Assembly: GCF_020091405.1 (NCBI RefSeq)
Contig: NZ_CP081903.1
Coordinates: 4,340,501-4,404,500, forward strand
Length of the DNA: 64,000 nucleotides
Origin: Bacteroides cellulosilyticus
GTDB lineage: Bacteria; Bacteroidota; Bacteroidia; Bacteroidales; Bacteroidaceae
Reading direction: 5' to 3'
The notes below the pieces were generated by a model. The model was not told where the DNA came from. It saw nothing but the letters and a program-made list of their open reading frames with translations, and made no database searches. This document shows, in pieces, positions 6,632 to 63,454 of the stretch. Numbering within the stretch: position 1 is the first letter of the stretch; every line of letters starts with the position of its first letter. The translations under genes were made by a program, and so were the position numbers.

Positions 6632-6954
6632 ATAAATGATAATTTAGCGGGCGGGAATGGGTACGCGGACGACGCGGATGAGGCGGACGAACGCGGAGTA
6701 TCTTTATTCTCCTCCTCCAGTTGGAGGAGGAGTACCCGTAGGGGGAGGTGGTAGGTAAGCAATAAAATACCTATTAATAAGAATATAAAGGATTTCTTCT
6801 CTCACCTACCACCCCGCCCTTTGGGCACCCCTCCTCCAACTGGAGGAGGGGAATTAGGATACTTCTACAATAAATATCGAGAAAAAAGTCCGCGTTCGTC
6901 CGCCTTATCCGCGTCGTCCGCGTACCCATTCCCGCCCGCTAAATTATCATTTAT
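6632..6954. repeat. Long nested inverted-repeat element (CGCGGA family) between two glycosidase genes
   Basis: Outer arms of 66 bases (6632-6697 and 6889-6954) are inverted repeats with about one mismatch. The outer tips read AAATGATAATTTAGCGGGCG; the inner parts are 9-base units such as CGCGGACGA. Inside lies a second, unrelated inverted repeat (about 6709-6739 with 6803-6855) built on CTCCTCCAGTTGGAGGAG, so one hairpin element is nested in another. Together they fill the 382-base gap 6588-6969 between the GH78 start and the GH140 stop. No gene is seen here. The element ends 15 bases downstream of the GH140 stop on the minus strand. Confidence 0.85.
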
Positions 6955-42510: not shown

Positions 42511-42654
42511 ACCTGTAATTTAAGATTTAACAAATAAATATTCTTTGTTTAGTTAGCTATACTAAATCAAACGACAAAATAAGGAGAGTAAGTAATAAAA
42601 TGAATCTTGGAGGATGCACTCTATCGCTTTTCACCCGAAAGCCTGAATGATTAC

Positions 42655-42857
42655 AGATATCGGCAGGTCTTCTGACTTGTTTCCGTTGTGGCGCCTTCCC
42701 GGTCTTTGCAGGACCAGTGGCTAAAGAATGCCACAATCTTTTCTCCACATGGTAGGGAGATGAAACTTACAGCTACGGGGATAGTCCCTGATTTTCACAG
42801 GATTCCCTTTTAATTCCGTTTCACGCTTGCGGTGATTTGGAAACCGTTATCGCTGAC
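42655..42857 (-). ncRNA. cobalamin riboswitch upstream of nrdDG
   Basis: On the minus strand the conserved cobalamin-aptamer elements follow in order: AAAGGGAATCCTGTGAAAATC, then GGGACTATCCCCGTAGCTGT (about 42790-42770), AGCCACTGG (about 42721), GGGAAGGCG (about 42700), and the B12 box AGTCAGAAGACCTGCC (42662-42677). A -7 element TAACTTTG (42857-42864) lies just before it. The leader to the nrdD ATG is about 145 bases without an obvious intrinsic terminator, so control may be translational. Expected effect: repression of nrdDG when B12 is plentiful. Confidence 0.92.
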
Positions 42858-42864
42858 AAAGTTA
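42857..42864 (-). promoter_or_regulatory. putative promoter -7 element for the nrdDG transcript
   Basis: TAACTTTG on the minus strand matches TAnnTTTG. A partial -33 TTG lies at 42883-42885, 18 bases away. The start would fall near 42849, immediately before the aptamer. Confidence 0.5.
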
Positions 42865-42956
42865 GAAATAAAATCAATAATCCAACGGATGATAGAAAAA
42901 AATATTCCCTGCTTATATTTTTTGTTTTAAAAAGCATCTCCAATGATAATTTCCAC

Positions 42957-42964
42957 TATCTTTG
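42957..42964 (+). promoter_or_regulatory. putative promoter -7 element for the carboxylase operon
   Basis: TATCTTTG matches TAnnTTTG and would start transcription near 42971, just before the plus-strand riboswitch. No good -33 TTTG is seen at 19-21 bases. It is about 95 bases from the oppositely directed nrdDG promoter. Confidence 0.5.
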
Positions 42965-42973
42965 CCCCGAATT

Positions 42974-43145
42974 GGTTTCGGATGAACATTTCTGTCATTT
43001 GGATTAAAAGGGAATCGGGTGTAAATCCCGGACAGTCCCGCTGCTGTGAAGCTCCATAACTTTCTTGATAAATACTTTAGCCACTGGCTGTGAATTGGAG
43101 GCCGGGAAGGAATCAGAAAGGGAGTCAGTCAGAAGACCTGCCATT
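42974..43145 (+). ncRNA. cobalamin riboswitch upstream of the acyl-CoA carboxylase operon
   Basis: The conserved order is present: AAAGGGAATCGGGTGTAAAT, CCCGGACAGTCCCGCTGCTG, AGCCACTGGCTG (43079 on), GGCCGGGAAGGAATC (43100 on) and the B12 box AGTCAGAAGACCTGCC (about 43127-43142). About 80 bases separate it from the first gene; this stretch could form the expression platform (GTACGAACGAATAAT near 43185). It ties expression of the following operon to B12 supply, consistent with a role beside B12-dependent methylmalonyl-CoA mutase. Confidence 0.92.
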
Positions 43146-43225
43146 CGTTAAAGTCTGTTGCTACTCGTGGGATTAGGGGAACAGTACGAACGAATAATTG
43201 TTTTAATTTAATTAATGCGAGAGGG

Positions 43226-59796: not shown

Positions 59797-59862
59797 TTCT
59801 ATTTTAGTTGTTTAAACTTGCCTTATGGCGGTGCGAATTAGGGGATAATATCCGGAACGGCA

Positions 59863-59897
59863 AAAACGCCTTTTTAAGCAAAAAAGGCGTTTTTCCA
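59863..59897. terminator. hairpin between the hypothetical gene and the VirE-like gene
   Basis: AAACGCCTTTTT pairs with AAAAAGGCGTTTTT, with A/T runs on both sides, so it can terminate in either direction. It separates the transcript of the 59911 gene from the VirE-like gene. Confidence 0.75.
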
Positions 59898-59910
59898 CAA
59901 TTTTGATTGA

Positions 59911-60270
59911 CTACTTCTTTTTCTCTTTTTTTCTCCTTTCCATCTCTTCTTCCCTGATTTTTTTTCTTAAGTTAATGATTTCAGTATTAATGCTTTCCAG
60001 GGACAGGAATCCTTCTTCGTGCTTCCCCTTTTCAAAAAGTGCGATACAGTCCAGCTTTCTTGCCAGGTGCATGGTTCCTTTCAATCCGGCCTCTTTTTTC
60101 CGGCTGATCAGCATGTTTATCCATGGCTTGAGAAATTCTTTTCTCTCTTCCGCCCGAACCCGTATGTGTTTGTCAAAAGCCTCATTTTCAACCAACAGGA
60201 TCTCAATCCTGTTTTCCTTTCTCTCGATTTGGATGTCGAAACCATCCTTGTTGATGAGTTCAATACTCAA
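59911..60270 (-). CDS. hypothetical charged protein with unclear start (possible frameshift)
   Basis: A 119-residue protein without a family I recognise: acidic/basic, mostly helical, with a long lysine-rich C-terminal helix (NLRKKIREEEMERRKKEKKK) likely to form a coiled coil. The open frame begins with TTG at 60270 and a stop lies four codons upstream. An ATG at 60290 followed by GAT and seven A residues is out of frame by one. If the tract had eight A, the protein would start MDKKNTILSIELINKDG and read straight through. So the start is either TTG, a slippage-dependent ATG, or affected by a sequencing error. A possible -7 TAACTTTG lies at 60298-60305. It lies between the VirE-like gene and the invertible promoter. 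Confidence 0.55.
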   Translation of the reverse strand: MSIELINKDGFDIQIERKENRIEILLVENEAFDKHIRVRAEERKEFLKPWINMLISRKKEAGLKGTMHLARKLDCIALFEKGKHEEGFLSLESINTEIINLRKKIREEEMERRKKEKKK

Positions 60271-60466
60271 GATTGTGTTTTTTTATCCATAAAACCACAA
60301 AGTTAGAAGTTAGTAATTTATTTTAAGTTTACTATTCGAAAGCAAAATTAACGGTAATCTTTCTAATATCTACTATTTCCGTTTATAAAAATGAATGTTT
60401 TATTTGTTTTGTGTTACATACATAATGATAAATAGGTAGGGGGACCTACCACCTATTAACTATAAA

Positions 60467-60598
60467 ATGTGTGTAACAAGATATAAAGAAAAAGTAGGGA
60501 AATACGCGCCTGTGAGTGCGTATGCGCAGGTACATTATTATAAAGAAAAGGTGAAGTTGAGAGGCTATACGGATCAGTTTGCAATGCTGATGAAATAG
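60467..60598 (+). CDS. possible 43-residue micro-protein
   Basis: The frame ATG 60467 to TAG 60596-60598 encodes a basic, tyrosine-rich peptide (MCVTRYKEKVGKYAPVSAYA and onwards, ending TDQFAMLMK). Codon use looks gene-like, but there is no recognised family. A hairpin (AATAGGTAGG/CCTACCACCTATT, about 60431-60457) precedes it. In the orientation seen here the invertible promoter would read antisense through it. Confidence 0.25.
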   Translation: MCVTRYKEKVGKYAPVSAYAQVHYYKEKVKLRGYTDQFAMLMK

Positions 60599-60653
60599 GT
60601 GGTAGAGTAGGTGATATGAATGTTATGTCAATAATGATTGAGGTAAATTAGGG

Positions 60654-60884
60654 GTGTTTTTTAATCGTTCGATTAATGTGCACAAAGATAATGTCAAGAA
60701 ATGAAACAACAAAATATTCTGATAAATAAATGCGATTAAATTTTTCTTTCAGTCTATATATTACTAATCTATAGAGGGTTATACCAGAAATAAAATTGTG
60801 CGTTGGGGACTGTTTCTTATTGAAAGAATCTTAGGGTAAATATGGCTTAGAAAAGTGTCTTTTAATCGAACGATTAAAAGACAC
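60654..60884. promoter_or_regulatory. probable invertible (phase-variable) capsule promoter, OFF orientation
   Basis: Twenty-three-base inverted repeats bound the segment: the left at 60654-60676 (GTGTTTTTTAATCGTTCGAT...) and the right at 60862-60884 (...CGAACGATTAAAAGACAC), with one mismatch. Between them on the minus strand is a textbook Bacteroides promoter: TTTG (60710-60713), 19 bases, TATCTTTG (60683-60690). As assembled it points left, away from upxY, with its start predicted at the left repeat. After inversion it would point right, starting near 60863 and reading into the upxY leader. This is the layout of B. fragilis-type capsule promoters flipped by a serine recombinase (Mpi/Tsr type). 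No recombinase gene is in the window. Confidence 0.85.
60683..60713 (-). promoter_or_regulatory. consensus promoter within the invertible segment
   Basis: On the minus strand TTTG (-33, 60710-60713) and TATCTTTG (-7, 60683-60690) are separated by exactly 19 bases. It is the best promoter match I saw in the window. It directs transcription leftwards in this assembly. Confidence 0.8.
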
Positions 60885-61034
60885 TTTTCTCTATTAATCC
60901 GTTCGTTTATAGCTTTTTACCTGCAATATAGCCACGGTAATGAACAGCTACAATAAGTCAATTGGCAAGATGAACACAAAGCTTGCCGTATCTACGATAA
61001 AGTGTTCGCAAGTGATTGAAACTCAAGTGTATGC

Positions 61035-61070
61035 AAGGGTGTCAAAACCCCGGAGGAACACCCTTTTCTG
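61035..61070 (+). terminator. leader hairpin upstream of upxY
   Basis: AAGGGTGT (61035-61042) pairs with ACACCCTT (61058-61065), followed by TTTCT; the loop contains CCCCGGAGG. It ends about 15-20 bases before the likely upxY start. A terminator-like hairpin here could be where transcription stops unless an antiterminator acts, or it could control translation of upxY. An upstream GGCAAG/CTTGCC hairpin (about 60963-60988) also lies in the leader. Confidence 0.5.
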
Positions 61071-61084
61071 AACAAAAACATCGA

Positions 61085-61642
61085 ATGGAGGAGCGAAAAC
61101 ATCAAATGGAACCGGAAAAAGAGCCTGAAATCTGGTATGCAATGCGTGCCACATACCGTAGGGAGCCTGATGCAATGCGTCTACTCGAAAAGGAGAAATT
61201 GGGCTGTTTCATTCCTATGCAATACAATACAATCATCAAGAAAGGGAAAAAGGTTCGCGCTTTAGTTCCTGTCATTCACAACTTGATCTTTGTCCATGCC
61301 CGTCCTTCGGAAGTGAAGCGTGTCAAGTCCCAGGTCACTTACCTGCAATACATCACCGACACCCGTAGCGGACAGAAGATAATCATCCCCGATAATGATA
61401 TGCAACGTTTCATCGCTGTAGCCGGTACCTACAACGATCATCTGATATACTTCCAACCCGAAGAGTTGAACTTGTCAAAAGGTACAAAAGTCCGCATCAC
61501 CGGTGGTGACTTCGAAGGTCAGGAAGGTGTTTTCCTGAAAGTGAAAGGTGCCCGCGACCGCCGTGTCATTATTGCAATACAAGGAGTCATTGCCGTTGCC
61601 ATGGCTACCATCCATCCGGATCTTATAGAAGTAGTCAAATAG
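61085..61642 (+). CDS. upxY: UpxY-family transcription antitermination factor
   Basis: A 185-residue NusG-like protein. ATG 61085 is chosen (ATG 61106 is possible; starts further upstream would place the leader hairpin in coding sequence). Residues about 12-115 form the NGN domain (EIWYAMRATYRREPDAMRLLEKEKLGCFIPM) and about 125-183 the KOW domain (KGTKVRITGGDFEGQEGVFL). UpxY proteins let RNA polymerase read through their own long capsule operon, and only that one. Position first in the operon, followed by upxZ, is the standard Bacteroides arrangement. Confidence 0.9.
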   Translation: MEERKHQMEPEKEPEIWYAMRATYRREPDAMRLLEKEKLGCFIPMQYNTIIKKGKKVRALVPVIHNLIFVHARPSEVKRVKSQVTYLQYITDTRSGQKIIIPDNDMQRFIAVAGTYNDHLIYFQPEELNLSKGTKVRITGGDFEGQEGVFLKVKGARDRRVIIAIQGVIAVAMATIHPDLIEVVK

Positions 61643-61710
61643 TTGGCAGTTGACAATCAATTATTGATAGTTGACAGTTGATAAATCATAAATCTGAAAT
61701 CATAATAGTT

Positions 61711-62199
61711 ATGTCTTTTTCTGAAGAAACAGTTGCTCTTCAGCGTGCCGCGCACGAGCTGATGTATTTGGGCATGGACGGTAGTCCCATTTATAGCGAT
61801 GACCTTTCCCGTCGTAACGGTGAAGTTTACCGTTTGACTACGGATTTGTATAATTCCGGTGTCAAGGGGTCAACAATTGAAGAGCAGGCGAATGTCTGCC
61901 TTGCGCTGTTGATGGGCTATAGTGCCTCGTTTATCGATCACGGTGAAAAACAGAAGCATATTCAGGAAATTCTGGATCGTTGTTGGGATATCCTTGATGT
62001 CCTCCCTGTTTCATTGCTGAAGCTTCGTTTGCTCACCGCCTGCTATGGTGAAGTGTTTGATGAACCTTTGGCTGACGAAGGGCGTGCAATTATTGTTTCC
62101 TGGAATTCCGCGGAGATTACTCCCGAACAGCAAGAAGCTATTGAGGAGTTTCAAAATGTAATAGACAATCCCTATCCGTGGGAAGAAATAGAAGAGTAG
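61711..62199 (+). CDS. upxZ: UpxZ-family regulator
   Basis: A 162-residue, mostly helical acidic protein beginning MSFSEETVALQRAAHELM; this start matches family members as I recall them, and the open frame upstream is repeat-derived. UpxZ proteins inhibit the UpxY factors of other capsule loci, so that one capsule is made at a time. The gene lies 68 bases after upxY. The gap holds AGTTGACA-type repeats (about 61644-61680) related to those inside the GH137-GH2 gene. Confidence 0.85.
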   Translation: MSFSEETVALQRAAHELMYLGMDGSPIYSDDLSRRNGEVYRLTTDLYNSGVKGSTIEEQANVCLALLMGYSASFIDHGEKQKHIQEILDRCWDILDVLPVSLLKLRLLTACYGEVFDEPLADEGRAIIVSWNSAEITPEQQEAIEEFQNVIDNPYPWEEIEE

Positions 62200-62278
62200 A
62201 AAAAGCGATAAATAAAGCTTTCCTAAATAGGTTTTATGCTTTCTATAACAAATTATTACGTATTACGAAAACAATATA

Positions 62279-63454
62279 ATGAAAAAGATAATGCTCGTGT
62301 TTGGTACTCGTCCAGAGGCCATCAAAATGTGTCCACTCGTCAAGAAGTTCCAGAAGCACACTAGTGAGTTCGAAACAATTGTTTGTGTTACCGGTCAGCA
62401 TCGTGAAATGCTCGAGCAGGTACTCAAAATCTTTGAGGTTACTCCCGACTATGATCTCAACATTATGAAACAAGGTCAAGATTTGACCGATGTTACCACT
62501 CGCGTACTCACGGGTATGCGTGATGTTTTCCAACAGGTGCATCCAGATGTTGTGCTAGTACATGGCGACACCACAACCTCTACAGCAGCAGCTCTTGCAG
62601 CCTTCTATCAGCAGATTCCTGTTGGACACGTAGAGGCTGGCCTTCGCACCCACAATATTTACAGCCCATGGCCAGAGGAGATAAACCGTCAGATTACAAG
62701 TCGAATCGCCACATACAATTTCTCGCCAACCCCTCTTTCTGAGAGCAACCTGCGAGCAGAGAAGGTGCTTGGTCAGATCTTCGTCACTGGAAATACCGTC
62801 ATTGATGCCCTTCACATGGTAGTCGATAAGCTGAAGAATGATGTAACCCTTGCCAAAGAGCAGGATGGTGTACTTGTTACTGCAGGTTATGACGTTACCC
62901 GTTTGAAGTATGGTAAGAAGCTCGTCCTCATTACTGGGCATCGTCGTGAGAATTTTGGCAATGGTTTCATCCACATGTGTACTGCTATCAAGAATCTCAC
63001 TCAGAAGTACCCTGATGTAGATTTCGTGTATCCAATGCACCTCAATCCCAATGTCCGTAGGCCAATCCATGAGGTTTTTGGCGAGAACCTCGAAGGCTTT
63101 AGCAACATGTTCTTCATTGAACCACTCCAGTACCTTGAGTTTATTTACCTGATGGAGAAGTCAACCATCGTTCTCACTGATTCAGGTGGTATTCAAGAGG
63201 AGGCTCCTGGTCTTGGAAAACCAGTACTCGTTATGCGTGATACCACTGAACGACCTGAGGCACTTTTCAGCGGTACCGTTCATCTTGTAGGTACCGACTG
63301 TGACAAGATTGTTAGTGAGGTGAGCACTCTTCTCGATGATCCAGATGCTTACGCTAAGATGTCTCATGCTGTCAATCCTTATGGCGATGGAAAAGCATGT
63401 TCACGTATTATTGCAGCTCTCAATGGTGAGAATCCGAAGCCTTATGGAATGTAA
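62279..63454 (+). CDS. wecB: UDP-N-acetylglucosamine 2-epimerase (non-hydrolysing)
   Basis: A 391-residue protein of normal length: MLVFGTRPEAIKMCPLVKKF, VCVTGQHREMLEQVL, VHGDTTTSTAAALAAFY, GHVEAGLRTHNIYSPWPEEINRQ, ITGHRRENFG and LTDSGGIQEEAPGLGKPVLVMR are all present. It converts UDP-GlcNAc to UDP-ManNAc, a precursor for capsule sugars. Codon choice (frequent CCA, CTC, AAG) differs from upxY and upxZ, fitting the idea that capsule biosynthesis genes are exchanged behind a conserved regulatory front. Confidence 0.94.
   Translation: MKKIMLVFGTRPEAIKMCPLVKKFQKHTSEFETIVCVTGQHREMLEQVLKIFEVTPDYDLNIMKQGQDLTDVTTRVLTGMRDVFQQVHPDVVLVHGDTTTSTAAALAAFYQQIPVGHVEAGLRTHNIYSPWPEEINRQITSRIATYNFSPTPLSESNLRAEKVLGQIFVTGNTVIDALHMVVDKLKNDVTLAKEQDGVLVTAGYDVTRLKYGKKLVLITGHRRENFGNGFIHMCTAIKNLTQKYPDVDFVYPMHLNPNVRRPIHEVFGENLEGFSNMFFIEPLQYLEFIYLMEKSTIVLTDSGGIQEEAPGLGKPVLVMRDTTERPEALFSGTVHLVGTDCDKIVSEVSTLLDDPDAYAKMSHAVNPYGDGKACSRIIAALNGENPKPYGM

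Follow-up and report, generated by a model that had tools for sequence, protein, structure and literature searches.

A very probable Mpi-type invertible capsule promoter in Bacteroides cellulosilyticus, captured in the OFF orientation, and a conserved leader RNA element ahead of its upxY gene

The locus described here raises the question of whether a promoter enclosed by inverted repeats and directed away from upxY belongs to a working capsule switch, and whether its capture in the OFF orientation says anything particular about this copy. It lies in a 64,000-nt stretch of Bacteroides cellulosilyticus DNA (the window), which is part of one 6.94-Mb contig. With a probability of about 0.9, the locus is an invertible promoter of the Mpi type that serves a capsular polysaccharide operon, and so adds one more case to a known class of switch. 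The features of such a switch are present: inverted repeats with a CGTTCG core surround a segment of about 200 bp, a promoter of the form TTTG-N19/20-TAnnTTTG lies inside the segment and adjoins one arm, upxY, upxZ and polysaccharide genes follow downstream, where the window stops after the first sugar genes, and the genome encodes an Mpi recombinase.

The arms are 23 nt long, differ at one position and leave a spacer of 185 nt (Table 1). On the minus strand, TTTG (60713-60710) and TATCTTTG (60690-60683) are separated by 19 nt, and the latter continues into the left arm. This Bacteroides-type promoter beside the left arm is directed leftward, away from both upxY and upxZ. The repeats with their single mismatch, the minus-strand promoter between them in the OFF orientation relative to upxY and the central TT/AA bases had been reported in a preliminary description of this DNA, and the sequence bears them out at the positions listed. 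A scan for inverted repeats (seeded by exact matches of 14 bp or more, spacing of at most 600) found 13 in the window, the arm pair and the hairpin at the right junction among them, compared to a mean of 0.1 and a maximum of 1 in 30 first-order Markov surrogates. Elsewhere in the window, a 66-bp exact inverted repeat enclosing a smaller nested one lies between two minus-strand genes (6632-6954) and is possibly a small mobile element, and two divergent cobalamin riboswitches stand back to back at 42645-42863 (minus strand) and 42955-43159 (plus strand). For upxY, the ATG start listed in Table 1 is preferred over a TTG at 61016, since the latter falls within the conserved leader.

Table 1. Features of the switch, its leader and the adjoining genes, in window positions.
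Feature	Position	Strand	Remark
Terminator-like hairpin, facing the OFF-directed promoter	60435..60450	-	consensus match only
Left inverted-repeat arm / recombination site	60654..60676	+	core TT at 60668-60669
Putative inverting segment, between the cores	60668..60870		predicted by analogy with the B. muris pair
Promoter TTTG-N19-TATCTTTG, OFF orientation	60683..60713	-	
Perfect palindrome, 20-bp arms, 2-nt centre	60849..60890		predicted for the OFF arrangement alone
Right inverted-repeat arm / recombination site	60862..60884	-	core AA at 60869-60870
Conserved leader RNA element, pseudoknot-like	60956..61035	+	stems 60964-60969/60982-60987 and 60972-60977/61002-61007 interleave
Terminator-like hairpin AAGGGTGT...ACACCCTT, short T run, immediately 5' of upxY	61035..61067	+	by inspection only
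upxY, UpxY-family antiterminator, NusG domain	61085..61642	+	
upxZ	61711..62199	+	PF06603; ATG start
wecB-like UDP-GlcNAc 2-epimerase	62279..63454	+	

The same module recurs in this genome. A protein search located UpxY-like genes at 11 places, with a fragment match beside one of these. The pattern CGTTCGWTTAATGNNCRCAAAGATA, which combines site and promoter, has 10 exact matches, every one upstream of an upxY-like gene; judged by strand relative to that gene, eight are OFF and two ON. When up to three mismatches were tolerated, five additional places were found, each with three, of which four are the opposite ends of known segments and one (5386329) is unlinked, and a control with the reversed pattern gave no match. 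Both exact cores are present at nine of the ten copies, which makes these two-site switches. The remaining copy (G000:C1:3576372-3576396, in L014 and L168) is ON and has only the gene-side core among exact cores; for this reason it may be fixed ON. The eleventh upxY-like gene is preceded by a different 24-bp inverted repeat with one mismatch, 344 bp across (L017, 961-984 and 1281-1304), perhaps another type of switch.

Three genes of the genome score above the NCBIfam Mpi equivalog cut-off. One, at G000:C1:4682524-4683120 and about 0.28 Mb from the window locus, has housekeeping-type neighbours (dihydroorotate dehydrogenase, alanine racemase-like, redoxin and undecaprenyl-phosphate translocase-like genes). 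Across the genus, Mpi (matches with an E-value of 1e-70 or better) occurs in 15 of the 15 genomes that have the exact pattern versus 39 of the 143 without it (Fisher p 2e-8); the co-occurrence is one-way, since those 39 genomes have Mpi as well. Due to this co-occurrence and its core gene context, the core Mpi gene is the best candidate for the enzyme. Both the recurrence of the repeat at other capsule loci, in either orientation, and an Mpi-family invertase gene, which the preliminary description had named as evidence to look for, were thus found. Its main reading, capsule phase variation through inversion of a segment by a serine recombinase, is well supported by the ten upxY-like loci, their two orientations, the invertase and the published B. 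intestinalis loci discussed below.

A search of the switch and leader DNA against 158 genomes of the genus, together with named loci from the GTDB collection, yielded further loci. Site pairs were sought at 67 loci (7 from this genome, 60 from relatives), of which 56 have a pair and 11 do not. Gene direction could be assigned at 42 of the site-pair loci, with 39 OFF and 3 ON; the other 14, placed by hand from the strand of upxY, comprise 6 OFF, 3 ON and 5 without an orientation call. The OFF share of the 60 relatives may be inflated because the query held the OFF promoter arm, and the ten loci of the own genome were chosen otherwise. The OFF capture is the ordinary state, and there is nothing special about the window copy in this respect: the orientation reported earlier is correct, but it does not serve as a distinguishing trait. 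In the ON form, TTTG (39 loci) or CTTG (5 loci) stands 19-20 nt 5' of TAnnTTTG at 44 of 44 loci, the TAnnTTTG itself being the entry condition for this set. Two contigs of B. muris (L032 and L033) illustrate both states. The 46 bases left of the site are identical, the next 192 bases past the segment contain 10 differences, and the segments agree at 192 of 203 positions when one is inverted versus 79 of 203 when compared directly. Reading the two as a single locus in two states was rejected, as 756 of 1000 ungapped positions differ downstream of upxY; since the operons diverge there, the contigs carry sister loci in opposite states.

The right junction carries a palindrome 42 bp in total, with arms at 60849-60868 and 60871-60890 and a predicted RNA minimum free energy of -24.6 kcal/mol (z -9.46). 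An 18-bp perfect hairpin at 60851-60888 had been noted previously; the hairpin is real, but its arms extend to 20 bp. The geometry contradicts the suggestion that it could affect the transcript once ON. On inversion the inner half would be replaced and would move to the left site, and the right junction would retain a stem of 7 bp; an action on this transcript was therefore excluded. In the OFF state, it is possible that the palindrome affects read-through from upstream. Shorter mirrored arms are frequent at junctions, probably because invertase sites have two-fold symmetry, as known for Hin and Gin, and the extra arm length here may represent a perfected quasi-palindrome.

Both orientations are represented among different loci of the genome and its relatives, with the window locus seen in the OFF form. 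Compared to the published ARACGTTCGT and GTTCGTTTAA, the core of the window repeat is identical, and the flanking base is a variant that 3 of 66 genus copies have. The inner half-site CGATTAA occurs at 3 of the 66 exact genus matches, namely the window locus, the paralogue at 5288200 and one locus of genome G153; the paralogue also has the VapE-like, HU-like and DUF4248 genes upstream in common with the window locus. The half-site is rare and departs from the published ARACGTTCGTN, so Mpi may not use the window site efficiently. The inner half of the right site also differs from the paralogue's, which could slow or lock the switch. A switch that is real by descent but locked OFF in the window copy, because a mirror image of the outer half has overwritten the right inner half-site and pairing or cutting is poor, would account for perfect mirrored arms that are the longest among 168 junctions (42 loci with four junctions each, two as sequenced and two as predicted after inversion), where the next reach 16 and then 14 bp and the corresponding junction of the paralogue L013 has 7 bp. 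This is unlikely, however, as the altered half still matches the general half-site form (e.g. L118, L129), the TT/AA core is intact and OFF loci are common anyway. A possible sign of locking was discarded as query bias: the eight loci whose alignment covers most of the query are all OFF, but full-length alignment to an OFF query is itself biased towards OFF loci.

The OFF orientation need not be silent, and the segment could be a two-way selector that drives leftward genes. At five of the ten own loci the nearest upstream ORF of at least 90 AA is indeed divergent, and at three more, including the window, this holds only if a doubtful same-strand ORF of 99-136 AA is ignored. Two of the ten loci, however, lack a divergent gene upstream, the divergent gene starts about 760-880 bp away at seven loci (292 bp at one), and in the window a minus-strand terminator-like hairpin separates promoter and gene, which makes such a role very improbable. 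Inversion by a phage-associated Mpi paralogue instead of the core enzyme is equally improbable. The genome does have two further Mpi-family genes, 98 % identical to each other, but both adjoin endolysin-like genes, genes resembling those for holins or tail tape-measure proteins lie nearby, and no CGTTCG site pair was found close to either. One of them (L171) lies beside two 99 % identical inverted ORF copies without a family match, a layout like that of a phage's own inversion system. These features are located at L171 1091-2788 and 2864-3472 and at L172 2853-3473. As a separate observation, a divergent ORF of 107-120 AA is located 764-825 bp upstream of the switch at five own loci (L163, L164, L165, L018 and L019, the last two reaching the end of the stretch), and the encoded proteins are similar by eye.

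For the invertible promoter, the preferred reading, the window copy is probably functional and its mechanism ordinary, and a recombinase can probably flip its segment of about 200 bases. Mpi, as the putative serine invertase, would bind the two near-palindromic sites, cut at the central TT/AA dinucleotides and flip the 200-bp segment. As captured, the promoter would fire leftward and leave upxY unserved; after inversion it would face upxY, with a transcription start predicted in or near the proximal arm. The ON transcript would then cross about 230 nt of leader, in which UpxY would be required against early termination, as published for the UpxY family.

This leader contains a conserved, pseudoknot-like element (Table 1). 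Its two stems are paired in 98.7 % of 381 cells from 32 distinct sequences, and pairing falls to 29-46 % when the stems are slid by 1-3 columns. Both-side changes occur at 6 of 12 pairs (5 in stem 2, 1 in stem 1). In 500 shuffles, the observed values were never reached for paired cells, both-side-changed cells or the covariation score, and were reached 3 times for both-side-changed pairs and 115 times for further pair types; the structure was proposed from the same sequences that were used for these covariation counts. Alignment A1 comprised the 44 leaders minus L019 and L102, and A2 additionally omitted L015, L016, L018 and L111-L113, whose leaders are unalignable. The count is lowered by a one-base misalignment of stem 1 in four B. 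fragilis-type rows of A2. An alternative stem, CTTGC/GCAAG, was dropped for having no covariation. A helix joining the crossover site to the downstream element TTAATCCGTTCGTTTAT was also rejected, since it is predicted in the single ON sequence and missing from the consensus fold of the 44 leaders. The terminator-like hairpin just ahead of upxY was not flagged by the terminator scan and is absent from the single-sequence fold. An Rfam scan of 59800-62300 gave no family for the leader element, and two matches that scored far under the gathering thresholds, one of which falls on the palindrome, were rejected.

A covariance model combining sequence and stem 2 matched 50 places in 22 of the 158 genomes, of which 36 are training rows and 5 lie in the own genome, and Mpi is present in 19 of these 22 genomes. 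Among 71 relative and own loci, all 42 with an upxY at least 78 % identical to that of the window match the model, 8 of them from outside the training set, and none of the 20 with an upxY of at most 54 % identity do. L104 and L065 are exceptions, with a match and no upxY detected although some sequence follows; behind the element of L104, UpxZ-like sequence is visible by eye. L076 and L067 match too close to the end of their sequence for a following upxY to be judged, and five loci have neither element nor upxY. Among the loci checked, the element is confined to one upxY subfamily. This correspondence suggests a part in cognate recognition, or the two could simply be co-inherited. A more far-reaching proposal is that a pseudoknotted leader RNA not yet described (60964-61007 in the window) is common to many of the capsule operons with this kind of switch, that it marks one UpxY subfamily and would be the cis element by which UpxY recognizes its operons, so that inversion and RNA tag jointly choose the capsule, and that the OFF-only palindrome also blocks read-through into the leader; this is tentative and rather doubtful as a whole. 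A literature search, mostly outside subscription journals, found no paper on a pseudoknot in Bacteroides capsular polysaccharide. Nascent-RNA pause hairpins and UpxY, together with UpxZ, are reportedly the subject of work from 2024 that may already describe part of the element.

Flip promoters determine which capsule is worn by gut Bacteroides. The nine two-site switches and one single-exact-site copy, with one likely enzyme, form a good set for relating half-sites to flipping bias, and the leader element offers a testable explanation of how UpxY might discriminate its own from other operons. Compared to known systems, the capsule promoters that are associated with integrases in B. xylanisolvens and P. 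distasonis are likewise invertible and lie 5' of upxY or nusG-like genes, but PMC12118408 gives unrelated repeats, segments of 280-345 bp and local invertase or integrase genes. The system in PMC4747536 shares with the window the serine invertase family, the CG-TT-CG core, a segment of about 200 bp, a Bacteroides promoter and upxY/upxZ downstream; it has ARACG half-sites, whereas the window has TTAATCG/CGATTAA, and the flanks differ. Related work includes PMC12632263 and PMC7315117. Also similar are B. intestinalis PVR7, 8, 9, 11 and 12, for which PMC8375218 gives promoter segments of 183-186 bp and an identical repeat core; the published repeat is GTTCGTTTAA, while that of the window is GTTCGATTAA and, at 23 bp, longer. 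According to the same paper, reads of PVR7-12 occur in both orientations with the start site within the proximal repeat, at least two Mpi homologues are named, the wild type has one CPS mostly ON and the other four mostly OFF, and the flip promoters set the sensitivity of B. intestinalis to a crAss-like phage.
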